A stretch of 64,000 nucleotides of DNA from Vaginella massiliensis (GTDB lineage Bacteria > Bacteroidota > Bacteroidia > Flavobacteriales > Weeksellaceae): assembly GCF_900089075.1 (NCBI RefSeq), contig NZ_LT593746.1, forward strand, positions 827,207 through 891,206, written 5' to 3'. Below are positions 1,326 to 63,498 of this stretch, piece after piece. The notes under the pieces were generated by a model. The model searched no databases. It was not told the DNA's origin and saw only the letters and a program-made list of their open reading frames with translations. Position 1 is the stretch's first letter. The number at the start of each line of letters is the position of its first letter. Made by a program: the position numbers and the translations under genes.

Positions 1326-2307
1326 TTTTCAATTCTTGATATTTTTCCACAATCATAGAAATGATTTGTTTCTGAATTTCGGTATTATTGTTGGCTTCGT
1401 TGTGCGGATACACTCCACCCGGACTCATCACGTTCAACTCTACCATTTTATCATTGATAATGTCGATTCCGCAGATATACAGGCCGTCTTTCACCAATTG
1501 GTTTCCCATTCTACGACACAGTTTCAGCTCGTTTTCGGTGAGTTCGTGTTTTACCGAATTCCCTCCGGCGCTGATGTTGGAACGGTGATCACCTTCTGCA
1601 GGAATTCTTTTGATAGCGCCAATAGGCTCCCCATTGATCACAATGGCGCGGATGTCACCATTTTCTGCACCCTCGATATAGTTCTGCACAATGATTGGCT
1701 TTTTCATCGTATCGCTGTTGTGAATATAAAAATCGGCGATAGAAGAAAGGTTGCTCATGTGTTCGCGGTCGAGCAAGATAACGCCTTTTCCGCCCATTCC
1801 ATCGAGTGGTTTTACGATAAACTTTTCGAAATCGTTTCCTTCTACAAATTTTTTAATCAACTCAACTTCTGTCGTAATCAGCGTTCTAGGAACCACTTCT
1901 TCTGTTCCATCGTCGAATGAAGCTGCGTAAATTTTGTTATTAGCCTTTCGCAAGCCCGAAATTTTATTCACAAAGAATACTTCGTCTTCGATTAGTTCTA
2001 AAATGTTCAGCAACAAATTGTCTACTGGCGGATCTACTCGCATAAACACGATATCGAAGTTGACCAATTCTTGAGTAGAAGATTCGAATTGCATGGTTTC
2101 GTAAAACTCTTTGCAATCCTCTATGTTGGGTTTGGCGATGAATTTCTGACATTTACCCAAGACTTTGCCGTTTTGAAGCGAAATCCCAGATTTGGTAACC
2201 ATCGACACTTCGTAGCCTCTTTCTACGCATTCTTTAATCAAACGTATGGTCGTGTCCTTCTTAGGTAACACCCTTTCCCAAGGGTACATGACGAAGCATA
2301 TTTTCAT
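1312..2307 (-). CDS. Glutathione-synthase-like ATP-grasp ligase
   Basis: This 331-residue protein resembles prokaryotic glutathione synthetases: an N-terminal pre-ATP-grasp domain (KICFVMYPWERV...), a central segment IVKPLDGMGGKGVILLD that matches the ATP-grasp glycine-rich loop, and a C-terminal GIDIINDKMVELNVMSPGG metal/ATP-binding segment. It would join an amino acid or peptide to a carboxylate with ATP hydrolysis in the cytoplasm. It is the first gene of a two-gene unit with the amidohydrolase/DUF1704 gene, a pairing that recurs in Bacteroidota as far as I recall. True glutathione synthesis is not proven; the product could be another small peptide. Confidence 0.8.
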   Translation of the reverse strand: MKICFVMYPWERVLPKKDTTIRLIKECVERGYEVSMVTKSGISLQNGKVLGKCQKFIAKPNIEDCKEFYETMQFESSTQELVNFDIVFMRVDPPVDNLLLNILELIEDEVFFVNKISGLRKANNKIYAASFDDGTEEVVPRTLITTEVELIKKFVEGNDFEKFIVKPLDGMGGKGVILLDREHMSNLSSIADFYIHNSDTMKKPIIVQNYIEGAENGDIRAIVINGEPIGAIKRIPAEGDHRSNISAGGNSVKHELTENELKLCRRMGNQLVKDGLYICGIDIINDKMVELNVMSPGGVYPHNEANNNTEIQKQIISMIVEKYQELKNEKA

Positions 2308-2390
2308 ATAAAATATTAGTTTTAAGTCTATGCAATTTAATTAAAACGATGAGATAAAAAAATCTAATTTTATATCCATCAAAAATTTAA

Positions 2391-2435
2391 TAAAAAAATA
2401 AGCCATCGCGTGTAAAATTGGGATGGCTTATTTTA
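2391..2435 (-). terminator. Rho-independent terminator
   Basis: An inverted repeat (AATAAGCCATC ... GATGGCTTATT) is followed on the minus strand by a T-run. It lies just past the stop of the TlpA-like gene that ends at 2447, so it probably ends that transcript. Confidence 0.7.
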
Positions 2436-2446
2436 TAAATGTAAAC

Positions 2447-2977
2447 TTAAAACCTCACTTGTTTGAGGGTGTCCAAGGTCGATTGTATGCTTGGATCGTT
2501 GGCTTTTACAGCATAATATTTTGCAATTTCACCTTGTTGATTTACCACTAAATAACGCGGCACCCAATTGAGATCGATGTAGTTGTTGAAATCATTTTTC
2601 CAACCGCTATCGAACCAATAATGTTTTCCTGCAATCTGGTATTTTTCAATTCCATTTTTCCAAGCGTTTTTTTTGCGGTCTACAGACAGAAAAACGAAAA
2701 TTACCTCTGGATTTTGCGCTTGTAGGGCTTGCAATTGCGGTAGACCCTCTATACAATCTTTGCACCACGTCGCCCAAATATCCAAAACAATGATTTCGCC
2801 TTTGTTCTGTTCGAAAATTTCTCGAAGTTCGATCGACTCATTGTCTAACGTCAACACTTTTTGATTGAGAGCTTCTTCCGAAAAAATAGTTTTGTTTTCT
2901 TGCGGAATTTTTTGTGCTTGAGCGGTATTCAATCCCAAGCCAACTGCCAAGATGCATAATGCAAAAAGATATTTCAT
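2447..2977 (-). CDS. TlpA-like secreted thioredoxin-fold protein
   Basis: The protein has 176 residues with a Sec signal peptide ending near AQA (residue ~21) and a thioredoxin fold with the redox motif WATWCKDC near residue 70. It belongs to the TlpA/ResA-like thiol-disulfide oxidoreductases that reduce or remodel disulfides in the periplasm. A cis-Pro region (NWVPRYLVVN) follows later in the chain, as expected. It is transcribed alone, divergently from pth, and is followed by a clear hairpin terminator. The client proteins cannot be told from the sequence. Confidence 0.8.
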   Translation of the reverse strand: MKYLFALCILAVGLGLNTAQAQKIPQENKTIFSEEALNQKVLTLDNESIELREIFEQNKGEIIVLDIWATWCKDCIEGLPQLQALQAQNPEVIFVFLSVDRKKNAWKNGIEKYQIAGKHYWFDSGWKNDFNNYIDLNWVPRYLVVNQQGEIAKYYAVKANDPSIQSTLDTLKQVRF

Positions 2978-3056
2978 GCCTTTTGGTTGTCAAATTGTAT
3001 ACCATTTTGTAACATTGTTTAGAAAAAATCTTGAAAGAAACCCTTAATTTTACCGC

Positions 3057-3623
3057 ATGCAAAAATATTTAATCGTAGGATTGGGAAATATTGGCGAACA
3101 GTATGCAAATACACGTCACAATATCGGATTCAAAGTGGTAGAAGAAATTGTAGCACGAAATGATGCTGCATTTTCTCCATCAAATTTTGGCGAAGTAGCT
3201 CAATTCAAATTCAAAGCAAGACCAATAGTTGTCTTAAAACCGAACACCTATATGAATTTGAGTGGCGATGCAGTGCGCTTTTGGCTGAATAAAGAAAACA
3301 TTGCCATCGATAATCTATTGGTTATAACCGATGATCTGAATTTGCCTTTTGGCACACTGCGCATGCGTGGAAAAGGGAGCGATGGAGGGCATAATGGGTT
3401 GAAAGATATTCAGAACAAATTGCAAACCACAAATTATCCGCGTTTACGATTTGGGGTAGGAAACAAATTTCTAAAAGGTCAACAAATAGATTATGTGTTG
3501 GGAGCATGGACAGAAGAGGAGCAACTCGCCTTTCAAGAAAGGGTAAAACTGGCAAGCGACGCAGCACTTTCATTTGTTTTTAATGGTTTGAATAATACAA
3601 TGAATCTGTACAATGGTAAATAG
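3057..3623 (+). CDS. pth: Peptidyl-tRNA hydrolase
   Basis: The 188-residue product matches bacterial Pth over its whole length: the N-terminal LIVGLGNIGEQYANTRHNIGF carries the catalytic His of the NTRHN motif, and PNTYMNLSG, DDLNLPFG and KGSDGGHNGLK are the family's other signature blocks. It releases tRNA from peptidyl-tRNAs that drop off ribosomes. The length is typical of the family. Its 3' end overlaps the downstream rhodanese-like gene by 11 nt, suggesting coupled translation. Confidence 0.95.
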   Translation: MQKYLIVGLGNIGEQYANTRHNIGFKVVEEIVARNDAAFSPSNFGEVAQFKFKARPIVVLKPNTYMNLSGDAVRFWLNKENIAIDNLLVITDDLNLPFGTLRMRGKGSDGGHNGLKDIQNKLQTTNYPRLRFGVGNKFLKGQQIDYVLGAWTEEEQLAFQERVKLASDAALSFVFNGLNNTMNLYNGK

Positions 3624-7229: not shown

Positions 7230-8708
7230 AAAAAGTTTAATCTATTATTGTCTACAGTTATGCTATTCGTTGCGGGTAGCACATTTGTAGATGCTCAAAA
7301 TTCTCAGAATCCTTGGGCAATTACGGTAGGGGCACACGCAACCGACCATAAGGCGGTACGTGGTGCTTTTAATCACTACTTTGATACAGATAACTGGAGC
7401 ATCGTACCTCCACTTTCTAAATTGTCTGTAATTCGTAACGTTAACCGTTCTTTTGATGTTGATTTGACAGCTTCTGTTGGTGAGATCGATAACAAAAGAT
7501 TGAAAATCGATGATGAATTATTCATCAATGCAGGCTTAGGTTTGCGCTACAAATTTGCTAACGGGTATATCTTAAACGAAAACTCTTGGTTCGATCCATA
7601 TTTAAGAGTTGGAGCAAGTTACCACCGTTACGACTATACTAGCTTAGGTGACAAACCATGGGTAGCATACCAAGGACAATCAGACAAAGAGTATGTAGAT
7701 TTATTGAACAATCCTGATGCAGAAGCAGAAAAAAATCACTTTGCATTACAAGGAGGGGCTGGAATCAACTTCTGGTTTACTAAAAACTTCGGTTTGAATG
7801 TAGCTTCTGATTACAACTGGATTCCTTCAACTGGAGCAGATTACTTCGACTTCTTCCAACACACTGTAGGAGTTACTTTCCGTTTCGGTAACAGAGACCG
7901 CGATGGTGATGGTATTCCAGATGATGAAGATGCATGTCCAGATGATTTCGGTATCAAAACAGATGATCCTGCAACCAACGGATGTCCAGACCGCGACGGT
8001 GACGGTATTCCAGATCACTTAGATGCATGTCCAGATGTACCAGGTGTAGCTGAATACAACGGATGTCCAGATACAGACGGTGATGGTATTCCAGATAACT
8101 TAGACGAATGTCCTACAGTAGCTGGTCCAGCTGAAAACAATGGATGTCCTTGGCCAGATACAGACGGTGACGGAATTCCAGATAAAGATGATGCTTGTCC
8201 TACAGAACCAGGATTGCCACAATTCCAAGGTTGTCCAGACACAGACGGTGACGGAATTCCAGATAAAGATGATGAATGTCCAACAGAAAAAGGTCCAGCT
8301 GAAAACAACGGTTGTCCTTGGAAAATTGAACACGTAACTCGTGCTTTATCTGCAATCTTGTTCGAGTACAACTCAGATAAAATTATTCCAGAATCTGAAA
8401 GAGACGTGATCAAAGCTGCAAACATCTTGAAATCTGAAGACTTCAGAGATAAAGATTTCTATGTAGACGGACACACTGACCAAAGAGGTACAGCTGCTTA
8501 CAACAAGAAATTATCTGACAGACGTGCAAAAGCTATCGTAAACGCATTGAAAGCTCAAGGTGTTAACGCAGATAGATTAACGCCACGTGGATTAGGTGAA
8601 TCTAACTTACTATGTAAGGAAGAGAACGAAACTTGTTGGCAACAAAACCGTCGTGTAGAATTGTTACCAAAAGAAGTGACAACTACAACGACTATCAAAA
8701 AGAAATAA
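7227..8708 (+). CDS. OmpA-family outer-membrane protein with thrombospondin type 3 repeats
   Basis: The ATG at 7227 is preferred to a TTG 6 nt earlier because it gives a clean signal peptide (MKKFNLLLSTVMLF...). The mature protein starts with an 8-strand-type beta-barrel region of about 200 residues. Then come five thrombospondin type 3 repeats of the form D-x-DGDGIPD-x4-CP, which bind calcium. A C-terminal OmpA domain (residues ~380-490) follows, with the peptidoglycan-binding signature DGHTDQRGTAAYNKKLSDRR. It probably links the outer membrane to peptidoglycan. The gene is G/C-richer and more codon-biased than its neighbours, fitting a highly expressed major OMP. Confidence 0.9.
   Translation: MKKFNLLLSTVMLFVAGSTFVDAQNSQNPWAITVGAHATDHKAVRGAFNHYFDTDNWSIVPPLSKLSVIRNVNRSFDVDLTASVGEIDNKRLKIDDELFINAGLGLRYKFANGYILNENSWFDPYLRVGASYHRYDYTSLGDKPWVAYQGQSDKEYVDLLNNPDAEAEKNHFALQGGAGINFWFTKNFGLNVASDYNWIPSTGADYFDFFQHTVGVTFRFGNRDRDGDGIPDDEDACPDDFGIKTDDPATNGCPDRDGDGIPDHLDACPDVPGVAEYNGCPDTDGDGIPDNLDECPTVAGPAENNGCPWPDTDGDGIPDKDDACPTEPGLPQFQGCPDTDGDGIPDKDDECPTEKGPAENNGCPWKIEHVTRALSAILFEYNSDKIIPESERDVIKAANILKSEDFRDKDFYVDGHTDQRGTAAYNKKLSDRRAKAIVNALKAQGVNADRLTPRGLGESNLLCKEENETCWQQNRRVELLPKEVTTTTTIKKK
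7897..8315 (+). repeat. Tandem coding repeats (TSP3)
   Basis: Five imperfect tandem units encode DGDGIPD-type calcium loops separated by CP-containing linkers. The nucleotide core GACGGTGAYGGWATTCCAGAT recurs. The repeats are in frame with the OmpA-family gene and are protein repeats, not a mobile or CRISPR element. Confidence 0.9.
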
Positions 8709-42092: not shown

Positions 42093-44384
42093 TTAATACA
42101 GATTATAACGGAAACCTAAGAAGCCTCTTATTCCCTGATTAGGTCCATATACATACGATGGGTCAAAAGTCAATCCATAAGGATTGTCAGGCGTTACCAT
42201 TGCCTGTCCGTTTCCGTCAAATTGAACATTATTGTCAAACGGGTCATTGGCTCTTGCTATGATAAACGGATTGCCTTTGTTTGGTGTCCAGTTCAAAAGG
42301 TTTTTAACACCACCATAGATTTCAATATTCTTACCAACTTTCTTTGTTAATTGAATATTCTGTATGCTCCACCAAGGGGAATATTCGCTACGGGGGTCGG
42401 TGTCGCTCAATAAAGGTAAACGCATTGGTCCATACAGGTTACCTGTATAATCCACGGTCAATCCTATGCCTTTGAATGTGTACCCAACATTCCAGGTTCC
42501 TGTAAATTTCTCGGTAAATAATTGTCTTACTTTTTCGCCTTCCTCTTTACTATACACATCCATAGCAGTTGCTCCGGCTAAAATTTTCAAACCATTAGGG
42601 AAAGCTACATCTATGTTTAATGATATACCCTGTGACACAGCGTGACCATCTAAATTGTCATAAATAATTTTGTTAGGGTCAGTATCATAGTCTGCTATGA
42701 TTTTATTATTAAAATAGGTGTAAAATGCGGTGGCATCTAATCCGATAAATGTACTTCCTGCATAAATCTTTTTTACGAAGTTCAGATTACCATTCCACGA
42801 AGTTTCCGGTTTTAAATCATTAATAAAAACGACCTCTCTTGCTCCGGTTAAAGCTGCGTGGTCTTCGGTGAATACGTTAGCAACCCTGTAACCATTACCA
42901 AAACTTAAACTTAATACATTGTTTTTATTATCAGAACTCCACTTATAGTTTACACGTGGAGTAAGGATACTACCGTGTAGTGAATTATAATCGTAACGCA
43001 TTCCTAACAATACTTTGTTATTGTCGTTAAACGTGATTTCGTCTTGTATAAACAGACCTGGCAGATTGGTATGGGTTGGTTTATTTTTGTCCAAGTCGTT
43101 TGCATCTGCTGTTGCAGGCGTATTATCATCGTAATAGGTATAACGATAGGCAAGACCAGTCAATAAATCGTGTTTCCCTAATGTTTTAAACCAGGTCAAT
43201 TGACCAAAAGCTATTTTCTGGTCAGCCATATATGGGGTATTGCCGTAAACGGAATTTTGGTCGTGTCCGTTGGCACTGAACTGGAAAAATATTTTTTCGC
43301 TTACAGGTAGCTGATAGTTACCCATCAATTCCCAACGGCTGGTATAGATACTTTCGCCATACACTTCATCGCCACCTCTGTATTTCTTTTCCCAATTCAT
43401 TTCTCCACCCCAACGGTCTTCATATACATATCGTCCTGCCAAAGTAAATACCCTGTTGTCTTTTCTGTCAAAGCTCCATTTATTGAAAATTGAAATTCGG
43501 TTTTGCAAAGTCACATCGGTAAAATTGTCGTTGTTATTGTCAATAGGGTTGCTGTAATTGAAGTAATTTACACCCAATAGTGACTGAGCTTTTTTACCAA
43601 CGCTGAACTTAGCGGCTAAATCGGCATTAACCTCTGCCCAGGTTGTTCCAAATACATCCGCAGAAATAATAGGTGCATTGCCGGGTCTTTTGGTAATAAT
43701 ATTAATCAAACCGCCCACGGCTTCACTACCATACAGCGTTGATGCCGGTCCTTTCACGATTTCTACACGGTCAATAAGAGCCTGTGGGATACCGCTCAAT
43801 CCATATACGGTAGAAAGCCCGCTGACAATCGGCATACCGTCTATCAATATCATTGTATAAGGACCTTCTAATCCATTTATATGTATATCGCCGGTATTAC
43901 ATACATTACAGTTTAATTGAGGACGTACCCCATTAATATTTTGTAAGGCATCAAAAAGGGATGGCGTAGGATTAGCTTTGAAAAACTTGGAGGTATAAAC
44001 TTCGACGGGTACAGGGCTTTCCAGTTTAGATACTTCTTTCATCGTTCCGGTGATAACAACGCCTTCCAATTCTTCCGAAGATTCTTCCAAAGTAAAATCT
44101 TTAGAAAGCGATTCGCTGTTGATAGTTATGGATTCTCTGTATTTGTTAAAACCGATATGGTTTACTTCTACCTCCCAAGTTCCGTAAGGAATGTTTTCCA
44201 ATCGGTAATTACCCTGGTCATCCGCAGATGCACCGATTTTTAGTTTGGGGATAAAAATGGATGCAGCCTCCATTGAGGTTCCTTTTGCATCCGAAATTTT
44301 CCCCGACAGCTTACCTGTCTGGGCGTAGGTTATCAAACCGGTAAGCATAATAACTGCTGTAAATAGTGTTTTGAATTTTGCCAT
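42093..44384 (-). CDS. TonB-dependent outer-membrane receptor (metal uptake, inferred)
   Basis: The 763-residue protein has a signal peptide (ends near TYAQ), a carboxypeptidase-regulatory-like beta-sandwich domain (residues ~25-105), a plug domain (VVITGTMKEVSKLESPVPVEVYTSKFF, then VEIVKGPASTLYGSEAVGGLINIITK) and a 22-strand barrel ending with an aromatic-Y residue. The plug contains NCNVCNTGDIHINGL, with two Cys. It is TonB-dependent importer-like; the ligand, probably a metal complex, is inferred from the divergent DtxR-type gene, the operator overlapping its promoter (44432-44447) and the adjacent thioredoxin. Confidence 0.88.
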   Translation of the reverse strand: MAKFKTLFTAVIMLTGLITYAQTGKLSGKISDAKGTSMEAASIFIPKLKIGASADDQGNYRLENIPYGTWEVEVNHIGFNKYRESITINSESLSKDFTLEESSEELEGVVITGTMKEVSKLESPVPVEVYTSKFFKANPTPSLFDALQNINGVRPQLNCNVCNTGDIHINGLEGPYTMILIDGMPIVSGLSTVYGLSGIPQALIDRVEIVKGPASTLYGSEAVGGLINIITKRPGNAPIISADVFGTTWAEVNADLAAKFSVGKKAQSLLGVNYFNYSNPIDNNNDNFTDVTLQNRISIFNKWSFDRKDNRVFTLAGRYVYEDRWGGEMNWEKKYRGGDEVYGESIYTSRWELMGNYQLPVSEKIFFQFSANGHDQNSVYGNTPYMADQKIAFGQLTWFKTLGKHDLLTGLAYRYTYYDDNTPATADANDLDKNKPTHTNLPGLFIQDEITFNDNNKVLLGMRYDYNSLHGSILTPRVNYKWSSDNKNNVLSLSFGNGYRVANVFTEDHAALTGAREVVFINDLKPETSWNGNLNFVKKIYAGSTFIGLDATAFYTYFNNKIIADYDTDPNKIIYDNLDGHAVSQGISLNIDVAFPNGLKILAGATAMDVYSKEEGEKVRQLFTEKFTGTWNVGYTFKGIGLTVDYTGNLYGPMRLPLLSDTDPRSEYSPWWSIQNIQLTKKVGKNIEIYGGVKNLLNWTPNKGNPFIIARANDPFDNNVQFDGNGQAMVTPDNPYGLTFDPSYVYGPNQGIRGFLGFRYNLY

Positions 44385-44419: not shown

Positions 44420-44498
44420 CAAAATTACTAAGTTAGATTATACTAATAAAATAAATTCTAACTTTGTTGTTAGTTGGGACTAATATTTAATACTTTTG
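44420..44498. promoter_or_regulatory. Divergent promoter region with two DtxR-type operators
   Basis: Two GTTAG-N6-CTAAT palindromes (44432-44447 and 44469-44484) lie between the TonB receptor and regulator genes. On the minus strand TTTA-N19-TAATTTTG (-33 at 44447-44450, -7 at 44420-44427) flanks the first palindrome, which sits inside the spacer, leaving 4 nt before the -7 box. On the plus strand TACTTTTG (44491-44498) follows the second palindrome. The regulator's ATG is at 44503, so its transcript would be nearly leaderless. Confidence 0.7.
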
Positions 44499-44502
44499 CT
44501 CT

Positions 44503-45168
44503 ATGATATCACAGACGGAAGAGAATTACCTGAAGGCTATATATACGCTTACCAGTTTAAAAGGTGAGGCAAGTGTGAATGACATCAGCAAGCAGTTGGA
44601 CATCAAAATGCCTACTGTAAACAGTATGATGAAAAGGCTTGCAGAAAAAAAGCTGGTGGTTTATGAAAGCTACAAGCCGCTTAAACTTACTGCTGCCGGC
44701 AAGAAGCAGGCGGCTCTTATTATCCGTAAGCACAGACTGACTGAGATGTACCTCGTGGAAAAAATGGGATTTGGCTGGGAAAATGTACATAATATAGCCG
44801 AGCAGATAGAGCATATCCAGGCACCGGAATTTTTTGAGAAGATGGATGAGTTATTGGGCTACCCCAAAGTGGACCCTCACGGTTCACCTATACCGGATGT
44901 TGATGGTAACATTGCCTCTGACCATTATATAAAGTTAAGTGATTGTAAGCCCGGCGATGTGGTTACTTTTATGGCGGTACAGCCATCCTCCGAAGAATTG
45001 CTGAAATTCCTGAACAGCCGTGCGTTATCATTAGGATTGGATATTAAGATTGAACAAATCGAAACTTTTGACAACAGTATGCGTGTCAGCTATACAGGCA
45101 AGCAAAACGAAATGTTGAGTAATCAGGTCTGCGACAAGCTGCTCGTGAGTAAAAATACAAAAAAATAG
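44503..45168 (+). CDS. DtxR/MntR-family metal-dependent repressor
   Basis: The 221-residue protein has an N-terminal winged helix (SVNDISKQLDIKMPTVNSMMKRL), a dimerisation and metal domain with HRLTEMYLVEK and EQIEHIQAPEF (His, Glu and Glu-His ligands present) and KVDPHGSPIPD, and a C-terminal SH3/FeoA-like domain (residues ~145-215), as in DtxR and IdeR. The place of MntR Asp8 / DtxR Met10 is Asn8 here, so the metal choice is open. It is divergent from the TonB receptor, between two operators, and is a good candidate for the repressor of the whole island. Confidence 0.9.
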   Translation: MISQTEENYLKAIYTLTSLKGEASVNDISKQLDIKMPTVNSMMKRLAEKKLVVYESYKPLKLTAAGKKQAALIIRKHRLTEMYLVEKMGFGWENVHNIAEQIEHIQAPEFFEKMDELLGYPKVDPHGSPIPDVDGNIASDHYIKLSDCKPGDVVTFMAVQPSSEELLKFLNSRALSLGLDIKIEQIETFDNSMRVSYTGKQNEMLSNQVCDKLLVSKNTKK

Positions 45169-46034: not shown

Positions 46035-46931
46035 TTATTCTATGTTTTGCGACAATGAAATATCCTTTATCGCCAATTTTCTTTTTTTGTTTTTCAGCAC
46101 AAATTGGGTGTACACGAAAACAATGGCAAACACAACTCCTGTCATTAACGCCATACATCCGGCAATGGAAGCGTTGAGCCAATACGCCAACCAATATCCG
46201 GTAAAGGAAACCAGAATGCCGATACCTACCGTAATGAAAAGCATTTTCTTTAAGTTTTCGGTTAGTAGATAAGCTGTTGCAGGCGGTCCGATAAGAAAAG
46301 TAATGACCAATATCGCTCCCACAGATTCAAAGGCACTTACCGTAGTAAAAGATACTGCTGCCATCAGGAGGTAATGCCACAATGCGGTAGAAATGCCGAT
46401 AGCCGTAGCAAAAGACGGGTCGAACGAGGTTAGCTTCAGTTCTTTGTAGCCGAAATAAATAAACAATACCACCAGAAGCAGCACTACCGAAAGGATATAT
46501 ACCGGTTTGGGACCTATATTTGTGCCGTCAGCAAGTATCCAAAGGTTGATGGGTACATAAGCGAGTTCTCCGTACAGTACACAATCCTGGTCAAGGTCTA
46601 TCTTTCCGGCAAAAGTGCTGATAAGTATGATGCCCACCGCAAACATAAAAGTAAACACAATCCCGATGGAAGCATCGGTCTGTAAACGGGCTTTGCGGTG
46701 CAGGTATTCGATGATGAATGTCGCTAATAACCCCGTGGCTCCTGCACCAAGAAGCATCGGAAGCGTATCACGGCTACCGCTCCATAAGAAAGCGATAACA
46801 ATGCCAGGCAATACGGCGTGGCTGATGGCATCGCCTACCATACTCATTTTGCGGAGTATGAGGAAACTGCCCAGCAGTCCGCAGGAAATAGCCACCAGTG
46901 CTCCGGTTAATATTATCCAAAATGCTATCAT
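46035..46931 (-). CDS. Metal ABC transporter permease (MntB/ZnuB-like)
   Basis: The 298-residue protein has about nine membrane helices and the ABC-3 family motifs LRKMSMVGDAISHAVLPGI near the N-terminus and GAILVITFLIGPPATAYLLT (the cytoplasmic loop). It transports Mn, Fe or Zn through the inner membrane together with the ATPase and SBP encoded upstream. It ends with a basic tail. It is the second permease of the operon, 14 nt after the permease-DtxR fusion gene. Confidence 0.92.
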   Translation of the reverse strand: MIAFWIILTGALVAISCGLLGSFLILRKMSMVGDAISHAVLPGIVIAFLWSGSRDTLPMLLGAGATGLLATFIIEYLHRKARLQTDASIGIVFTFMFAVGIILISTFAGKIDLDQDCVLYGELAYVPINLWILADGTNIGPKPVYILSVVLLLVVLFIYFGYKELKLTSFDPSFATAIGISTALWHYLLMAAVSFTTVSAFESVGAILVITFLIGPPATAYLLTENLKKMLFITVGIGILVSFTGYWLAYWLNASIAGCMALMTGVVFAIVFVYTQFVLKNKKRKLAIKDISLSQNIE

Positions 46932-46945
46932 TTTATCTGTTTGTA

Positions 46946-48229
46946 TTACTTCGGTATCACCGTTCCGTGCGGGTCAGTGTCCGGGTTGTCCAAATATTTT
47001 TCCAGTTGTTTTTCGAGTTCGGGCGTGATGTAATGCTCCATTTCCTCGGCATTGTCGTGTACGTGGTCGGGAGCTATTTCCATATAATTGGTCAGGTACA
47101 ATTCCCACAAACGGTGTAACCGCACTATCTTTTTTGCTTTTTCAAGACCGTTTGCTGTCAGTTGCCATTGTTGGTATTCGTTTACCACCTCTTTTCTCTT
47201 TTTAAGCCTTGTCAGCCCGGACTTCAATTGTGCCGGTTGCATTTTCCGGAAAGCCAGCAATTCTTCCGCCGTCCTTTTCTTATCGAAATTATTTTCTTTC
47301 TCTCCGATTTGATAAAACAGTTTCAGTATATTTTCATCCACCATTGTACGGCTGTTTTTGTTCCGCTTCATTGTTTTGGGAACAATTCCCAACGGAGCAA
47401 AAAAGAACGAAAAAAATGCAATCAGTGAAGAAACCACTACCATCCACGGACCCGTAGGCATTGCCGGGGCGATGTACGAGATGTACGCCCCTGCCAGTCC
47501 CGATAAGGCTCCGAATATCGCTGCCAGCCCAACCATTCTTCGGATATTGTGTGTCCAATACCTTGCCGCTGCGGCAGGCGTAATCAGCATCGCCGCCATC
47601 AGCACAACGCCTACTGCGGTAATGCCCGTTACCACCGCTAATACGGTAAGGCTGGTCAACAACATATCCAATTTTCGCACGGGCAAGCCCAATACCTGGG
47701 CATAATGCTCGTCAAAAGCGATAATGGTAAATTCCTTAAAAAACGCCAGTGTAGCCACAATCAGCACCACGGCAATAATGGAGAAGGTTATCAGGTCGCT
47801 GCCAACAAGTGTTGCTGCCTTCCCGAATATAAAACTGTCCATTCCGCTCTGTGCCGCATTGCCCGATTGTTGTATGTAGGTCATCATCACGATGCCCAGA
47901 GCAAAGAACACTGAAAGTACCAACCCGATGGCGGCATCTTTTTTTATCTTGGATTTAGCCGTGATGTAATCTATTGTTACCAAAGAAAGCCATCCCGAAA
48001 TGAAAGCTCCCACAAGCATCAATGAAATATTCTTTGTCCCTGCAAAAAGAAAGGCGGCACAAATACCCGGCAAAACCGAATGGGAAACGGCATCGCCTAC
48101 AAGTGATTTTTTCTTCAGTACAATGAACGAACCCACGATGGCGGCACTTACCGAAAGCAGGATGCTCCCGATAACCACATACTTGATATTTGGGTCATTG
48201 AATGAAAAAAAGTTGATGAAATTATCCAT
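46946..48229 (-). CDS. Metal ABC transporter permease fused to a DtxR-like domain
   Basis: Residues 1-~290 form an ABC-3 permease (LKKKSLVGDAVSHSVLPGICAAF; VLMAAMLITPAAAARY). The last ~130 residues form a DtxR-like winged helix plus dimerisation domain: KSGLTRLKKRKEVVNEYQQWQLT, then LHRLWELYLTNYM, EEMEHYITPEL and DTDPHGTVIPK, with His, Glu and Glu-His metal ligands in place. The C-terminal SH3 domain is absent. A metal-sensing domain on the inside of a metal importer could stop transport when cytoplasmic metal is high, or be a second repressor. Fused proteins of this plan exist in other Bacteroidota, as I recall. Confidence 0.85.
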   Translation of the reverse strand: MDNFINFFSFNDPNIKYVVIGSILLSVSAAIVGSFIVLKKKSLVGDAVSHSVLPGICAAFLFAGTKNISLMLVGAFISGWLSLVTIDYITAKSKIKKDAAIGLVLSVFFALGIVMMTYIQQSGNAAQSGMDSFIFGKAATLVGSDLITFSIIAVVLIVATLAFFKEFTIIAFDEHYAQVLGLPVRKLDMLLTSLTVLAVVTGITAVGVVLMAAMLITPAAAARYWTHNIRRMVGLAAIFGALSGLAGAYISYIAPAMPTGPWMVVVSSLIAFFSFFFAPLGIVPKTMKRNKNSRTMVDENILKLFYQIGEKENNFDKKRTAEELLAFRKMQPAQLKSGLTRLKKRKEVVNEYQQWQLTANGLEKAKKIVRLHRLWELYLTNYMEIAPDHVHDNAEEMEHYITPELEKQLEKYLDNPDTDPHGTVIPK

Positions 48230-48241
48230 TGTTTCTGCCGA

Positions 48242-49027
48242 TTATCCTTTTTCGGAAAATTTATCTTTAGCCAACAAGTCACCGGCTTCTGCCAATACGG
48301 ACAATCTTGTGCCGTAGGTCTTTTTGAGCAGTTCGGGAATGTAAACCTGCTTTACCGGACCCGAAGCCACGAGCCGCATATTGAGCATTACGAGCCAGTC
48401 GAAATATTCGGTGATAGTGTCCAAATCGTGGTGAACAACGATAACGTTCTTTTTAGCATTGACCATTTCACGCAGAAGTGTAATAATGGCTTCTTCCGTA
48501 GCGGCATCGACACCGGCAAAGGGTTCGTCCATCAGGTAAAAATCGGCTTCCTGAGCCAATGCCCTTGCGATGAAAACCCGTTGCTGCTGTCCACCCGAAA
48601 GCTGGGAAATCTGCCTTTTGGCAAAATCAGTCATTCCTACTTTTTCCAGACATTCCATTGCTATTTTCCTGTCGGAACTGCGTACGTTGCGAAGCATTCC
48701 GATTTTAGCATATCTTCCCATCAATACTACATCAAGTGCAGATACCGGAAAATCCCAATCCACCGTTTCCCGCTGGGGAACATAACTCACTCGGCTGCGG
48801 ACTTCATCCAGTTCTTTGCCAAATATTTTTACATAGCCACTCGATAGCGGAATTAAGCCCATTATGGATTTAAGCAAAGTGGATTTACCGGAACCGTTGG
48901 GTCCGATGATGCCCGTAATGCTTCCTTCGGGCAGGCTGAAATCTACGCCCCAGAGTGCCGGTTTGCTGGAATAGCTCACGGTAAGGTCGTGAACTTCCAA
49001 TACAGGATTTTCAGATTGGATAATCAT
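48242..49027 (-). CDS. Metal ABC transporter ATP-binding protein
   Basis: The 261-residue protein has GPNGSGKSTLLKSIMG (Walker A), LSGGQQQRVFIARALAQ (signature) and FYLMDEPFAGVD (Walker B), with the following HHDLDTITEYF switch His. It drives import by the ABC-3 permeases. It lies 5 nt after the SBP gene and 12 nt before the fused permease, all one operon. Confidence 0.93.
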   Translation of the reverse strand: MIIQSENPVLEVHDLTVSYSSKPALWGVDFSLPEGSITGIIGPNGSGKSTLLKSIMGLIPLSSGYVKIFGKELDEVRSRVSYVPQRETVDWDFPVSALDVVLMGRYAKIGMLRNVRSSDRKIAMECLEKVGMTDFAKRQISQLSGGQQQRVFIARALAQEADFYLMDEPFAGVDAATEEAIITLLREMVNAKKNVIVVHHDLDTITEYFDWLVMLNMRLVASGPVKQVYIPELLKKTYGTRLSVLAEAGDLLAKDKFSEKG

Positions 49028-49032
49028 TTTGT

Positions 49033-49959
49033 TTACTGTTTTAATGCAGTTACAATGGTAGTGACATTATGCTTTACCATACCGATGTATGTACCTTCGG
49101 GAGTTCCTTTTTTGCCCATTGCATCTGAAAAGAGATTACCACCGATAGCGAGTTTTTTTCCTTTGTTATTTACACCTTCCACCACAGCTTTGAGCGATTT
49201 GTCCGATACGGAACTTTCCACAAATACTGCGGGAATATCGTTTTTGAGGATAAAATCGACCAAATCGGTAACATCCCGCAAACCGATTTCCGACATTGTA
49301 GAGATACCCTGCAATCCCCGAACCTCAATCCCATAAGCCTTTCCAAAATAGCTGAACGCATCGTGTGCGGTAATCAAAACCCGTCTGTTTTCAGGGATGG
49401 TTTCAATTTCGGCTTTCACCCAATGGTCGAGGCTGTCCAGTTCTTTAAGATATTTATCAGCGTTTTGCTGATAATACGCTGTGTTTTCGGGATTGAGCCG
49501 GATAAGATTTTTCAGTGCTATTTCCGCCGCTTCTTTCCAAAGAGCTACGTCAAACCAGATATGCGGGTCATAGGTATTTTCGGATACACTGATTATTTTT
49601 CCACGGCTGATGGTGTCGCCCAATGCAATTACCGGCTTTACGTGGGTTTGCTTCTCCAGTATTTCACCCATTTTGCCTTCAAGATGCAGTCCGTTGTAAA
49701 AGATGTAATCGGCATCCATTATTTTTTTGAGGTCGCCCTGGCTGGCTTTGTACAGATGCGGGTCCACTCCGGGCTGCATAATGGCTTCTACCTTTGCAGC
49801 ATCTCCGGCTATATTTTCTACTATATCGGCTATCATTCCCGTTGTAGTAATGATATAGGGCTTTTCATCTGTTGCTGTCTTTTTGTTTTCCCCGCAGGAA
49901 AACAACAGGGAAACAATGGCTAAAACACAAAGATAATATACGTGATTTTTCATCTTCAT
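49033..49959 (-). CDS. Metal ABC substrate-binding lipoprotein (Mn/Fe type)
   Basis: Started at the ATG at 49959, the 308-residue product has a lipoprotein signal (ending LLFSC) and the cluster A-I binding protein fold. The metal ligand blocks are GVDPHLYKAS (His), YDPHIWFD (His), VFVESSVSD (Glu) and LFSDAMG (Asp). The His-His-Glu-Asp set and the absence of a His-rich loop fit Mn/Fe-binding proteins such as PsaA, rather than ZnuA. It is the first gene of the transport operon, under the palindrome at 50028-50051. Confidence 0.88.
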   Translation of the reverse strand: MKMKNHVYYLCVLAIVSLLFSCGENKKTATDEKPYIITTTGMIADIVENIAGDAAKVEAIMQPGVDPHLYKASQGDLKKIMDADYIFYNGLHLEGKMGEILEKQTHVKPVIALGDTISRGKIISVSENTYDPHIWFDVALWKEAAEIALKNLIRLNPENTAYYQQNADKYLKELDSLDHWVKAEIETIPENRRVLITAHDAFSYFGKAYGIEVRGLQGISTMSEIGLRDVTDLVDFILKNDIPAVFVESSVSDKSLKAVVEGVNNKGKKLAIGGNLFSDAMGKKGTPEGTYIGMVKHNVTTIVTALKQ

Positions 49960-50015
49960 TTGAATTACGATTTTTCCTAAGTCATTCATAGAATGATACA
50001 AAATAAATATTTAGG

Positions 50016-50073
50016 CAAATATAATTAAAATGTTAGACTTGTATAACATTTAGACGATATTATTCTATATTTG
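50016..50073. promoter_or_regulatory. Divergent promoter region with an AT-rich palindrome
   Basis: AAATGTTA-N8-TAACATTT (50028-50051) is a perfect 8+8 palindrome that contains the variant GTTAG-N6-ATAAC. It sits between two -7 boxes: TATATTTG on the minus strand (50016-50023, for the metal transporter) and TATATTTG on the plus strand (50066-50073, for the small DtxR-like gene). Its core differs from the other four operators and could serve the adjacent regulator. Confidence 0.65.
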
Positions 50074-50159: not shown

Positions 50160-50609
50160 ATGGAAGAAATAAACGACCTGACATATGCTGAAAAAATGTA
50201 CCTGTTGAAGATTTATCAGCTCTCAATGGATGAGGATAAGCGTATTTCTACTACTCAAATAGCCAAATTGCTCGAAGTTAAAGCACCTTCGGCAACAGAT
50301 ATGCTGAAAAGACTGGCTTGTAAAGGACTGGTATCGTATAGTAAATACCAGGGTTGCGAAATAACAAAGGAAGGCATCAGTATTGCATCTGTGATTTTGG
50401 AGCAAACGCTATTGACACAACGGTTTCTAAATACGCAACTGGGTATGGCTATGGAAGATAGTCAGCGTATTGCAGAAAAAATCATTACGCTGGATGAACC
50501 TCTGCTGTTTGATAGTTTTGCTAAAATCCTAAAAGTTCACCAAACCGATAGCATACGGCGATTATCTTATACCCCAAATCCAAACCAACCCTTTTTCTTC
50601 TTTTTGTAA
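50160..50609 (+). CDS. Short DtxR-like regulator with a degenerate metal site
   Basis: The ATG at 50160 gives 149 residues. The winged helix (ISTTQIAKLLEVKAPSATDMLKRLACKGLVSYSKY) and dimer helix are present, and the DtxR Met10 position is Met here. But the His of the HxLLE motif is replaced (TLLTQRFL) and the Glu-His pair is lost (EKIITLDE), and the SH3 domain is missing. It may be metal-independent or sense something else. The last 43 nt overlap the convergent HAD gene. Confidence 0.75.
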   Translation: MEEINDLTYAEKMYLLKIYQLSMDEDKRISTTQIAKLLEVKAPSATDMLKRLACKGLVSYSKYQGCEITKEGISIASVILEQTLLTQRFLNTQLGMAMEDSQRIAEKIITLDEPLLFDSFAKILKVHQTDSIRRLSYTPNPNQPFFFFL

Positions 50610-51016
50610 TTGATATGAGCCTCTTTATTCTTTAATTGGTGTGCATATTCGCCACCTTCGGGATGAAGGGTCTGCCAGATAACATCCCACCCCATAAAGC
50701 CGCCTACATTGCGGTCGTCAATAAAAATGTCGGCATTAATTTTCCTGCTGAAATCACCTTCAGCGGTTTCTCCCGGATAGTTTTCATTGACTGCATAAAA
50801 TTCCAGCCCGTTCCCTCTGCAATAATCAACAGCCTCTTCCAGCTCTTTCCCTTTCCTGTAAGTCCACAATATCAACCGGTGTCCTTTGCTTTTAAGTGCT
50901 TTAAGTGTCGCAAAGGCAAACATCATTTCGTTCCCGATATCGGGGTATTTATGTTCAACAACAGTGCCGTCAAAATCTACGGCTATTACTTTTCCTTTCG
51001 TATCAATAAGGTTCAT
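50567..51016 (-). CDS. HAD-superfamily small hydrolase
   Basis: The 149-residue protein has the HAD motif I VIAVDFDGTVVEHKYP, motif II LILWTYRKGKEL and motif III/IV INADIFIDDRNVGGF, all around a cytoplasmic fold without an obvious cap. A phosphatase acting on a small phosphoester is likely. It is the last gene of the 14-gene operon, overlapping the upstream gene by 4 nt; HAD enzymes need Mg or Mn. Confidence 0.78.
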   Translation of the reverse strand: MNLIDTKGKVIAVDFDGTVVEHKYPDIGNEMMFAFATLKALKSKGHRLILWTYRKGKELEEAVDYCRGNGLEFYAVNENYPGETAEGDFSRKINADIFIDDRNVGGFMGWDVIWQTLHPEGGEYAHQLKNKEAHINYKKKKKGWFGFGV

Positions 51017-51315
51017 TTCTTACTGTATTTTGCTCTAAGTTTTATTTTTTCGTTTTCTCTTTCAATCAGCAGGGCTGCTATAATCTGCCCTGCGGGAAGT
51101 TTATCTTTATTTTCAGCCAATGCTTTTTTGACCTTTTCTTCCGATACATCTATGTGGTACAATATGCTTAGCAGTTTATTGAAATCGGATTGTATCAGTC
51201 CGTCTAAGTAGCGTGCCAGTACCTCAAATTGTTCCTCGTTTGAATATTGGGATGCAACTTCTTCAAGCTGAAGTTTATCAGCAATCAGGGATATGGGGTA
51301 ATACGTTCTATCCAT
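51013..51315 (-). CDS. Conserved hypothetical small protein
   Basis: The 100-residue protein begins MDRTYYPISLIADKLQLEEVA, has a helical middle part and a basic end (LLIERENEKIKLRAKYSKK). I recognise no enzymatic motif. It lies between lpxH (21 nt upstream) and the HAD gene (4-nt overlap) in the operon, so it is very likely expressed. Confidence 0.7.
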   Translation of the reverse strand: MDRTYYPISLIADKLQLEEVASQYSNEEQFEVLARYLDGLIQSDFNKLLSILYHIDVSEEKVKKALAENKDKLPAGQIIAALLIERENEKIKLRAKYSKK

Positions 51316-51335
51316 TTATGAATATTTTTTGATGA

Positions 51336-52133
51336 TTAATGTAATTTAGCTTCCCGATTGCCGAATTTGTTTAAACACATCGTACAGCCGTCAAATTTGC
51401 CGTATGTAAAATGATGTATCCAGTCACCCAGATTGATGTACCGGGATTTTTCGTTAAGTGCTATATCCAAAGGAAGATGCCTGTGTCCGAAAACGAAATA
51501 ATCATAATGTGCGGATGCCAGTTTTTGTCTGGCATATTGGACCAGCCATTCTTTATCTTCTCCAAGAAACTTTACATCTTCATCACCTGAAATAAGTTTG
51601 TTTTTGACCGAAAGGTATTGCCCCAATCTTATGCCGATGTCGGGATGCAACCAACGGAACAGCCACACAAACAATGGACAGGTAAATATCTTTTTCAACC
51701 GTTTATAGCCCTTGTCATAAGGACCCAATCCATCTCCGTGAGCGATAAAAAAACGTTTCCCGTTAATCGTAAATATTTCCGGCGAATGAAATACGGGAAT
51801 GTTCAGTTCCTTCTCAAAATATCCGCTCATCCATAAGTCGTGATTGCCTGCAAAGAAATATACGGGAATACCGCTGTCGGTTATTTCGGCAAGTTTGCCC
51901 AATAGCCTGACAAATCCTTTCGGAACAACGGTTTTATACTCGAACCAGAAATCAAATATATCTCCCAGCAAAAAAATAGCTCCGGCATCCTTTTTTACGC
52001 TGTCCAGCCATTTTATCAGCCGTAATTCTCTCGCATAACTTTCCTTTGCAGTTGGTGCACCCAAATGGCTGTCGGAGGCAAAATATACGTTTTTACCACT
52101 GCTTAATTCTATGTAACGGCATCTTGTTTCCAA
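51336..52133 (-). CDS. lpxH: UDP-2,3-diacylglucosamine hydrolase, LpxH-like
   Basis: The ~265-residue calcineurin-like phosphoesterase shows DSHLG (motif D-x-H), LLGDIFDFWFEYK, FAGNHDLWMSG and IAHGDGLG and a late FGHRHLP. These two-metal (Mn) motifs and the length are those of LpxH, which makes lipid X in lipid A synthesis. No in-frame ATG is near; TTG at 52133 is the best start. It lies 27 nt after gpmA in the operon. Confidence 0.8.
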   Translation of the reverse strand: METRCRYIELSSGKNVYFASDSHLGAPTAKESYARELRLIKWLDSVKKDAGAIFLLGDIFDFWFEYKTVVPKGFVRLLGKLAEITDSGIPVYFFAGNHDLWMSGYFEKELNIPVFHSPEIFTINGKRFFIAHGDGLGPYDKGYKRLKKIFTCPLFVWLFRWLHPDIGIRLGQYLSVKNKLISGDEDVKFLGEDKEWLVQYARQKLASAHYDYFVFGHRHLPLDIALNEKSRYINLGDWIHHFTYGKFDGCTMCLNKFGNREAKLH

Positions 52134-52159
52134 ACATTCATTCAGTGTTTTAATGATTT

Positions 52160-52795
52160 CTAAATCGGGACGGTATTGTTTGTTTCTGCGATAACCCTTC
52201 CCAGTTTTACGGCATTCATCTGGTCATCGAAAATGTACGTCAGGGGTTCGCCTGTTGCAATTTCCCGTTTCAGTATTTCTTCGGGAGAGAGATGTTCCAG
52301 GTACATTATCAATGCCCGCAAACTATTACCGTGAGCCACAAGAAGTACATTCTTATGCTGCTGTAATTGTGGCTGTATGAAATTTTCAAAATAAGGTATC
52401 ACTCGGTCGTAAGTATCTTTCAGGCTTTCACCACCCGGAGGTGCAATGTCGAATGAACGTCGCCAGATATGTACCTGCTCGGCTCCGTATTTTTTGGCTG
52501 TTTCGGCTTTGTTCAATCCTTCCAGCATACCGTAGGCTCGTTCGTTCAATGCCTCGTTAATGATAATGGGCGTGTTTGTTTTTCCCATTTCGTTCAGGAT
52601 GATTTTTAATGTATGCTGTGCCCTGATGAGCTTAGATGTAAAGGCTACATCTACTTTTTCTTCTTTCAGGATTTGCCCTGCCCGTTCAGCTTCCAGTTGT
52701 CCAAGTGCTGTAATATCTACATCCTGCCAACCTGTAAAACGGTTTTCAAGGTTCCATTGTGATTGTCCGTGCCGGACTAAAAATAATTTTCTCAT
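52160..52795 (-). CDS. gpmA: 2,3-bisphosphoglycerate-dependent phosphoglycerate mutase
   Basis: The ATG at 52795 begins [27 protein letters not shown], the RHG signature of histidine phosphatase d[24 protein letters not shown] and [13 protein letters not shown] follow. The ~211-residue enzyme interconverts 3- and 2-phosphoglycerate in glycolysis through a phospho-His and needs no metal. Longer reading in the same frame overlaps dihydroorotase and is unlikely. Its place between metalloenzyme genes is notable because the alternative mutase, GpmI, needs Mn. Confidence 0.9.
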
Positions 52796-52799
52796 CGTT

Positions 52800-54146
52800 T
52801 TATGTATTATGTTTAACCAATGCTTTTCCTTTTCTATCTTCATTAAAATGCCCCTCTTCGTAAACAAGGTTTCCATTGACCAATGTGTGTGTAACCTTAG
52901 TTTGAAAAACAGTACCTTCCAATGGCGACCAGCCACATTTATACAGGATATTGTCTTTTGAAACCATCCATTCCCTGTTCATATCCACCAATACCAAATC
53001 CGCATAATATCCCTCCCTGATAAATCCACGGTTCTCGATTTGGTAAAGTATAGCAGGGTTATGGCACATCTTCTCCGCTATTTTTTCCAACGATATAATT
53101 CCCTGCTTAAAAAATTCAAGCATAATATTCAGTGAATGCTGTACCATAGGTGCGCCTGAAAGAGCGGTAAAATAGTTGCCGCTTTTTTCTTCAAGGGTGT
53201 GCGGTGCGTGGTCGGTAGTAACCAGGTCAATATGATTGTCTGTCAATGCCTGCAACAAACCTTTTCTGTCTGCTTCTGATTTGATGGATGGGTTCCATTT
53301 TATGAATGCGCCCAATCGGTCATAGTCTTTCTCGGAAAACCAAAGATGCTGTACGCAAACTTCGGTAGTGATGTTCTTATCAGTCAGGGGAATGGTTTTG
53401 TCAAATAGCTGTGCTTCGGATGCGGTTGTAAGGTGCAGGATATGCAAACGGGCATTGTATTTGGTTGCCAAAGCAATAAAGTCCCGTGTTGCTTCGATAC
53501 AGGCTTGCTCATTGCGTATTTGAGGATGGAACTTAAATGGAATATCGTTACCATATTGCAGCTTATAAACAGCTTCGTTTGCTGTAATGAGGGCTTCCTT
53601 TTCGGCGTGTACGGCAATGATACATTGGCAATGGGCAAACAGTTTTTCCATTACCTGCGGATTGTCGGCAAGCAGGTTTCCTTTCTTTGTAAAGTATAAG
53701 CCGTCGTCTGATACCGCCAGGAACTGAGAGGTATCCATCTGAAGAATATCCTCAATGTTATCGGCATTTACGCCCATAAAAAAGCCAAAGTTTGCCAATG
53801 ACTTCTGTGCTGCCATACGGTATTTGTTTTCCCATAATTTCAGCGTGAGTACATTGGGCTTCGTGTTCGGCATATCTATAAACGAGGTAACGCCTCCGGC
53901 TATGGCTGCCTTGCTTTCTGTATATAAATCCGCTTTGTGCGTTAATCCGGGGTCACGAAAATGCACCTGACCGTCAATAACCCCTGGAAATAAATACTTA
54001 CCGTTTCCGCTAATCACTTTTGCATCCCACTGATGAAGTGCAATACCTATTTTTTGGATACGACCATTAGCAATGAGTACATCTGCATTGGTAATGATGC
54101 CCTCATTGACTACGTTGGTATCTTTTATGAGAATAGGTTGTGTCAT
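52800..54146 (-). CDS. pyrC: Dihydroorotase
   Basis: The ~448-residue amidohydrolase has [15 protein letters not shown] (His-x-His metal motif), [33 protein letters not shown] and [10 protein letters not shown], as class I dihydroorotases. It closes carbamoyl-aspartate to dihydroorotate in pyrimidine synthesis and binds Zn. The ATG at 54146 is preferred over a TTG 18 nt earlier. It is the tenth gene of the operon. Confidence 0.88.
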
Positions 54147-61400: not shown

Positions 61401-61997
61401 TTATTTTAAATTGTTGTTCGCAAAATCCCAGTTGACGATTTCCCAAAAGCCTTCCACAAATTTTGGACGGGCATTGCGGTAGTCGATGTAGTAGGCGTGT
61501 TCCCATACGTCCAGCGTGAGGATTGGGGTTTTATTTTCAGTCAATGGAGTATGGGCATCTTTCATCGGCACGATTTCCAGTTTTTGGTTTTCGTCCTGTG
61601 CGAGCCACGCCCATCCGCATCCAAATAGCTTTACTGCCGTAGTAGAAAACAGTTCCTTGAAGTTTTCAAAACTGCCGAAATCACGATTGATAAGTTCGGC
61701 TATCCTGCCTTGTGGAGTTTTACCGCCATTTGGCGAAAGGCAATGCCAGAAAAAGCTGTGGTTCCAATGCTGTGCAGCATTATTGAACAGTCCGGCATTG
61801 TTTTCTGCAAATCCCTTTCGTATGATTTCCTCGACGGTAGCGTTTTCTAAGGGGGTGTCTTTTACCAACCCTGCAAGGTTGTTGACATACGTAGCGTGAT
61901 GCTTACCGTAATGATAATCGAAGGTTTCCTCCGTGATTATCGGATTAAGGGCATTTCTGTCGTACGGAAGCTCCGGTAATACTTGTGTAATTCTCAT
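61401..61997 (-). CDS. sodA: Superoxide dismutase, Fe/Mn family
   Basis: The 198-residue protein has the metal-binding blocks HHATYVNNLAGL, NNAAQHWNHSFFWHCLSP, LFGCGWAWL and DVWEHAYYIDYRNARP. AAQ at the Gln place is the Fe-SOD signature rather than Mn-SOD, though cambialistic use is common in this phylum. It removes superoxide. Its ATG overlaps the stop of a 56-residue upstream frame (ATGA), so it is translationally coupled. Confidence 0.93.
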   Translation of the reverse strand: MRITQVLPELPYDRNALNPIITEETFDYHYGKHHATYVNNLAGLVKDTPLENATVEEIIRKGFAENNAGLFNNAAQHWNHSFFWHCLSPNGGKTPQGRIAELINRDFGSFENFKELFSTTAVKLFGCGWAWLAQDENQKLEIVPMKDAHTPLTENKTPILTLDVWEHAYYIDYRNARPKFVEGFWEIVNWDFANNNLK

Positions 61998-62199: not shown

Positions 62200-62230
62200 C
62201 AAAAATAATAAGTTAGAATGTACTAACAAA
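62200..62230 (-). promoter_or_regulatory. Promoter with embedded DtxR-type operator, metalloenzyme operon
   Basis: On the minus strand TTTG (62230-62227), a 19-nt spacer and TATTTTTG (62207-62200) form an ideal Bacteroidota promoter. GTTAG-N6-CTAAC (62212-62227) fills the spacer, with 4 nt between its edge and the -7 box. A bound repressor would block RNA polymerase directly. Confidence 0.8.
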
Positions 62231-63433: not shown

Positions 63434-63498
63434 TCCGTACTACGGACATTTTAATCCCTCTTACATACCTGTTAGAATAATCTAACTTTTTATATTTG
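63434..63498. promoter_or_regulatory. Divergent regulatory region of AraC/ABC genes
   Basis: TCCGTA-C-TACGGA (63434-63446) is a perfect 6+6 dyad near the AraC-type start. GTTAGA-N4-TCTAAC (63471-63486), the most symmetric of the five sites, is followed after 4 nt by the -7 box TATATTTG (63491-63498) for the plus-strand ABC gene. The -33 element is weak, as expected of an activator-dependent promoter. Confidence 0.7.

Follow-up and report, generated by a model that had tools for sequence, protein, structure and literature searches.

The closest described relative of the protein considered here is YtgCR of Chlamydia, an importer permease whose C-terminal tail is reportedly cleaved off to act as YtgR, an iron-dependent, DNA-binding repressor (PMC5599777, PMC7755916). 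Permease-DtxR fusions have been reported in 11 phyla (PMC5599777), and the prior explanation for them is the chlamydial model, with the tail as a repressor awaiting cleavage; our search for literature on such fusions in Bacteroidetes or Planctomycetes returned nothing relevant. MetNI and ModBC are established examples of a different kind of control, trans-inhibition of an importer via regulatory domains in the cytoplasm (PMC10710835). The kind of fusion described below is thus already known, a precedent on which an earlier note on this DNA was silent, while the apparent split within it, with sensing kept and DNA binding lost, is new to us.

The window, by which we mean the whole 64,000-nucleotide stretch of Vaginella massiliensis DNA that was analysed, carries an operon of genes for a substrate-binding protein, an ATPase, a fused permease and a second permease, possibly followed by a lipoprotein-like gene. 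Its features and those of its surroundings are as follows.

44432..44484, no strand: two candidate DtxR-type operators (44432-44447 and 44469-44484) ahead of dtxR, between it and the TonB-receptor gene
44503..45168, plus strand: full stand-alone DtxR/MntR-family regulator (PF01325 and PF02742)
46035..46931, minus strand: second ABC-3 permease, with no tail (PF00950)
46946..48229, minus strand: fused gene, ABC-3 metal permease with DtxR-type tail, 427 aa (single open reading frame; Pfam ABC-3 and Fe_dep_repr_C)
46949..47158, minus strand: DtxR metal-binding/dimerisation domain, residues 358-427 (PF02742; conserved ligands)
47159..47335, minus strand: predicted winged-helix domain, residues 299-357, fold kept and DNA-recognition sequence degenerate (AlphaFold2, Foldseek; no PF01325; conservation test)
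47294..47386, minus strand: predicted linker helix, residues 282-312 (AlphaFold2; spacing in relatives)
47399..48190, minus strand: ABC-3 permease domain, residues 14-277 (PF00950, 240 bits; PsaC fold, 7kyp)
48242..49027, minus strand: ABC ATPase (MntA-like)
49033..50001, minus strand: ZnuA/TroA-type substrate-binding protein (PF01297, 273 bits)
50032..50047, no strand: candidate DtxR-type operator GTTAGACTTGTATAAC, central part of the 50028-50051 palindrome, in the gap that separates the operon from the short DtxR gene
50160..50609, plus strand: short DtxR paralogue, DNA-binding domain intact and metal domain degenerate (PF01325, 57 bits)

The fused gene is one uninterrupted, ATG-started frame, and its product is an ABC-3 metal permease of the TroC/PsaC/YtgC type by its PF00950 match, its PsaC-like fold and its operon with substrate-binding protein and ATPase. 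It is equally a YtgCR-type fusion, since a single frame holds an ABC-3 permease and a DtxR metal domain with its ligand residues, and the operon has the YtgCR-type order of substrate-binding protein, ATPase, fused permease and second permease. The Fe_dep_repr_C match spans residues 358-427 and all of the Pfam model (positions 1-70 of 70; 88.7 bits, E 2.5e-25), which rules out similarity by chance, and the candidate ligands within it are H372, E376, H391, E395, E398 and H399. The earlier claim of a permease fused to a DtxR-type winged helix and a complete metal domain is confirmed by the single frame, Pfam, AlphaFold2 and Foldseek; its account of the tail as DtxR-like stands for the winged-helix fold and the metal ligands but not throughout, as PF01325, the curated DtxR DNA-binding domain, goes unmatched by Pfam in the winged helix of the fused protein, and the third, SH3/FeoA domain of DtxR is missing from its 427 residues. 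Of the marks of a DtxR/MntR repressor, the tail has PF02742 with ligands and lacks PF01325 with a conserved recognition helix.

An assembly or frameshift artefact is ruled out by relatives at 92% and 37-58% identity that have the same fusion, and no frameshift or read-through joining two genes was seen. The nearest copy, that of Chryseobacterium sp. JM1, is the one 92% identical, and its gene context is the same. Close relatives thus keep the fusion, although only one of three species of the window's own genus gives a match: the other two yielded no permease match even in a looser search, so that the whole transporter, and not merely the tail, seems absent from them. The flank of the operon at 50600-53000 is only partly shared with these two congeners (about 324 bases, 84-85%), and the region may accordingly have been laterally acquired or rearranged.

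AlphaFold2, whose models here are of single chains, gives the fused protein a pLDDT of 85 and a pTM of 0.75 and predicts a winged helix at residues 299-357 and a helical metal domain at 359-412. By Foldseek, the permease resembles PsaC (7kyp; TM 0.88 of target) and the tail resembles the manganese repressor DR2539 (8pw0; TM 0.82 of target). In the same model an unbroken helix, residues 282-312, begins just past the final transmembrane segment and continues as the first helix of the winged helix. In 22 of 24 relatives the spacing from P279 to K303 is 26 residues; the window's protein and one other have 25. The tail is predicted, then, to be rigidly joined to the membrane domain by a continuous helix of fixed length; this helix and the winged-helix fold are known here as features of the model. 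A short helical linker of this kind argues against proteolytic release of the tail, without deciding the matter.

The two halves of the tail have fared differently in evolution. PF02742 is present in all 94 fused tails and PF01325 in none (0 of 24 for the Bacteroidota fusions), whereas both are matched in each of 45 stand-alone DtxR proteins. The fairest comparison is a paired one, in 18 genomes that each encode a fused and a stand-alone DtxR protein: mean identity is the same in the metal domain (0.595 fused versus 0.594 stand-alone) but lower for the fused proteins in the winged helix-turn-helix, or wHTH (0.299 versus 0.479), and in the recognition helix (0.298 versus 0.591). The ratio of wHTH to metal-domain identity is 0.50 (95% 0.46-0.56) in fused and 0.81 (0.77-0.85) in stand-alone proteins, with no overlap over 300 bootstraps. 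In DtxR numbering, H79, E83, H98, E105 and H106 are invariant in all 24 fusions, ligand position E102 is D in three of the 24, and ligand position 10 is N except in four, where it is H; an extra histidine, H389, occurs in every one of the 24 Bacteroidota fusions and not in stand-alone DtxR. A Glu at position 102, where DtxR has Cys, we take to lean towards manganese. Between the window and JM1, identity is 70% in the wHTH, 96% in the permease and 91% in the metal domain; the corresponding dN/dS values, rough with synonymous sites near saturation, are well below 1 in all segments, and the wHTH, at 0.15, is the fastest segment yet under purifying selection. The fused wHTHs are basic. Judged on sequence, the tail shows no recognisable DNA-binding signature while its metal site has been kept, and the evidence tends against its being a repressor that binds DNA.

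Regulators with intact DNA-binding domains are close at hand, and the operon is not the sole source of DtxR-type protein in the region: others are encoded on either side of it, one in full (44503-45168) and one as a DNA-binding half (50160-50609). The latter gene is divergent from the operon, and its product gives no Pfam match to PF02742. It is present in JM1 as well (129 aa), with an identical recognition helix, and its DNA-binding half resembles the operon-heading DtxR proteins of relatives more than it does the full DtxR of the window; it is possibly the operon's own DtxR, cut down to the DNA-binding half. Of the 23 other aligned Bacteroidota loci, 17 have a stand-alone dtxR immediately ahead of the operon and in the same orientation, under a conserved operator of the TTTAG-N6-CTAAA type. 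TTTAG-N2-8-CTAAA precedes 25 of 30 dtxR genes so placed, where mononucleotide shuffles would give 0.17, and a related operator is found upstream of 27 of 30 dtxR-headed operons of relatives. In the window, the palindrome at 50028-50051 has the core GTTAG-N6-ATAAC, which JM1 retains, and fits the stand-alone DtxR proteins better than it does the tail. The full dtxR is divergent from a TonB-dependent receptor gene (42093-44384, minus strand), a pair conserved in JM1. GTTAG-N6-CTAAY sites with at most one mismatch number 14 strand matches in the window against 5.1 expected (1 of 100 shuffles), with sites of this type at 8591-8606, 44432-44484, 50032-50047, 62212-62227 (upstream of a superoxide dismutase-like gene, 61401-61997) and 63471-63486 (between genes for an AraC-type regulator and an ABC exporter-like protein). 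From their sequences, the window's DtxR-type operators likely mark a local metal regulon.

A constrained metal site, relaxed DNA reading, a predicted rigid link and a separate repressor with its operator together fit a metal sensor that acts on the transporter. We lean slightly, at a little better than even, towards a tail that senses metal in the cytoplasm and throttles the importer to which it belongs, while separate DtxR proteins see to transcription. Of the two roles that the earlier note offered, sensing at the channel with feedback inhibition is the one that the evidence favours more. In the mechanism that we infer, the fused gene would supply one of the two permease subunits of a Mn/Fe/Zn-type ABC importer, and the DtxR-derived tail on the permease's cytoplasmic end would probably bind the imported metal as its level inside the cell rises. 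The change so induced would then pass via helix 282-312 into the membrane domain and thereby lower transport, by feedback or trans-inhibition, and stand-alone DtxR proteins would govern transcription separately at TTAG-N6-CTAA-type operators. Many tail-less ABC-3 permeases work, so the tail is inessential to transport.

The main counter-evidence to the sensor reading is the reported DNA binding by YtgR of C. trachomatis. Four fusions from environmental Chlamydiae are likewise PF01325-negative; as such fusions lack the match and YtgR is nevertheless reported to bind DNA, a missing domain match need not mean that DNA is not bound. On the chlamydial pattern, a protease would free the tail to repress the operon as a soluble protein that depends on metal, and the matching domain and operon order of ytgABCD, the cleavage and iron-dependent DNA binding reported for YtgR of C. 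trachomatis, and the winged-helix fold retained according to AlphaFold2 and Foldseek all speak for it. We nonetheless consider it unlikely here, given the failure of PF01325 to match any of 94 fused tails, a recognition helix left unconserved despite conserved operon operators, the dedicated stand-alone DtxR adjoining the operon, and a linker that is helical and of fixed length rather than flexible. At one parachlamydial locus (L180, Parachlamydiales, 2063-3328), a Chlamydiae-type fusion has an intact metal domain and an apparently partly deleted winged helix, an observation relevant to the question of whether every chlamydial tail is able to bind DNA.

Metal binding need not imply gating, and the strong constraint on the metal site, together with the invariant H389 absent from stand-alone DtxR, would also suit a tail that accepts the ion at the cytoplasmic exit and passes it on, lending directionality or protection; this we judge decidedly unlikely, and the winged-helix-only tails of other Bacteroidota mean that the tail cannot serve as a relay and nothing else. 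It is very doubtful that the short DtxR pairs with the tail in a divided regulator, the tail serving as the metal-sensing half that sequesters or releases it: the two have degenerated in mirror image, the one keeping its recognition helix and losing its metal domain and the other the reverse, and both are kept beside the same operon in JM1, but the pattern is confined to two genomes, those of the window and JM1, and the full DtxR is present too. Very improbable as well is a tail that is a relic, or serves structure alone, and regulates nothing: its several losses on the tree (8 switches between tail and no tail) and its fast-changing wHTH could be cited for this, and against it stand a metal domain conserved as in working DtxR proteins and dN/dS well below 1 in every segment. 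The earlier proposal of a membrane-bound repressor, a tail that binds the operon promoter while attached to the permease, as was raised for full-length chlamydial YtgC (PMC5599777), we regard as the most improbable of all despite the retained winged helix and basic residues and the palindromic candidate operator upstream (50028-50051), because the paired-genome test disfavours it in its simple form, the degenerate wHTH has no PF01325 match and an unconserved recognition helix, a dedicated stand-alone DtxR exists, the conserved operator core is of the type that precedes stand-alone dtxR genes, and a single tail per transporter provides no ready-made dimer for binding DNA.

Full-length fusions span Bacteroidota and also appear in records labelled Balneolia, Latescibacterota, Omnitrophota, Sumerlaeota, Verrucomicrobia, Planctomycetota, Chlamydiae, Spirochaetaceae and Bdellovibrionales, or about ten phyla. 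In a tree of tails every fused tail falls on one side of a branch with support 91/92 over 66 columns, and in the permease tree the two subunits separate, with tails in both halves and the 8 tail/no tail changes mentioned above. One old fusion followed by losses is the simplest history, though with 66 columns and that support it is not firmly resolved; an independent origin of PERM2-type fusions, suspected from permease similarity, was set aside as the tail tree groups all fused tails, again not firmly. A third form has a single, PERM2-like permease that is fused. Other Bacteroidota have winged-helix-only tails without a metal domain, the first permease being modelled with the same continuous helix and the second permeases having similar tail extensions. 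Fused permeases at loci L076, L077, L078, L099 and L082-L084 have no substrate-binding protein or ATPase gene detected nearby, and those at L082-L084 have a longer tail (about 495 aa in total), with a FeoA domain matched in two of the six members of their alignment (A3).

In 23 operons, mostly from Planctomycetota and also from Latescibacterota, Omnitrophota and Spirochaetaceae, both permeases have DtxR tails, the first with HVD...AD..EH and the second mostly with H.H..AE..EH and DPHG. With tails on both subunits, one transporter could form a DtxR-like dimer; the window's transporter has a single tail, and a tail dimer there would have to be made between two transporters or with a partner protein. 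Tail residue 391 is D in the 23 operons with a Perm2 tail and in nine with none called (some at contig ends), and H in 40 without; we do not claim that the residue directly tracks the Perm2 tail, for the types follow phylogeny. Possibly, if at somewhat less than even chances in our estimation, widespread ABC-3 importers are gated post-translationally by a built-in DtxR-derived sensor devoid of DNA recognition, the fuller form of which, in Planctomycetota, Latescibacterota, Spirochaetaceae and others, would be a diverged DtxR pair, one per permease subunit, making a complete metal-dependent dimer under the channel. What the pattern suggests is a tail that, in many phyla, is a sensor acting on the importer; if so, a transcription-factor fold has been turned to controlling metal uptake after translation, and there is reason to re-examine the role of the fused tail in Chlamydia.

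Set beside known systems, the locus resembles C. trachomatis YtgCR (CT069) and ytgABCD, compared here by published description, in joining an ABC-3 permease to a DtxR-type C-terminal domain, in gene order and in conserved metal-coordinating residues (PMC5599777). It differs in that its tail is without a recognisable DtxR DNA-binding domain, and in having separate DtxR proteins and operators where YtgR is reportedly cleaved to become the iron-dependent repressor itself. With the DtxR/MntR repressors (DR2539, ScaR, SloR, DtxR) the tail shares fold, metal ligands and dimerisation domain, but it is fused to a membrane protein, lacks FeoA/SH3 and has a degenerate DNA-recognition sequence. The permease is like those of Streptococcus pneumoniae PsaBC and other ABC-3 importers in fold and sequence, PsaC having no tail. 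The mode of action that we propose, in which substrate on a pair of cytoplasmic regulatory domains would throttle import, is that of MetNI and ModBC, whose regulatory domains, however, are of other folds and sit on the ATPase subunit, whereas that of the window sits on the permease.
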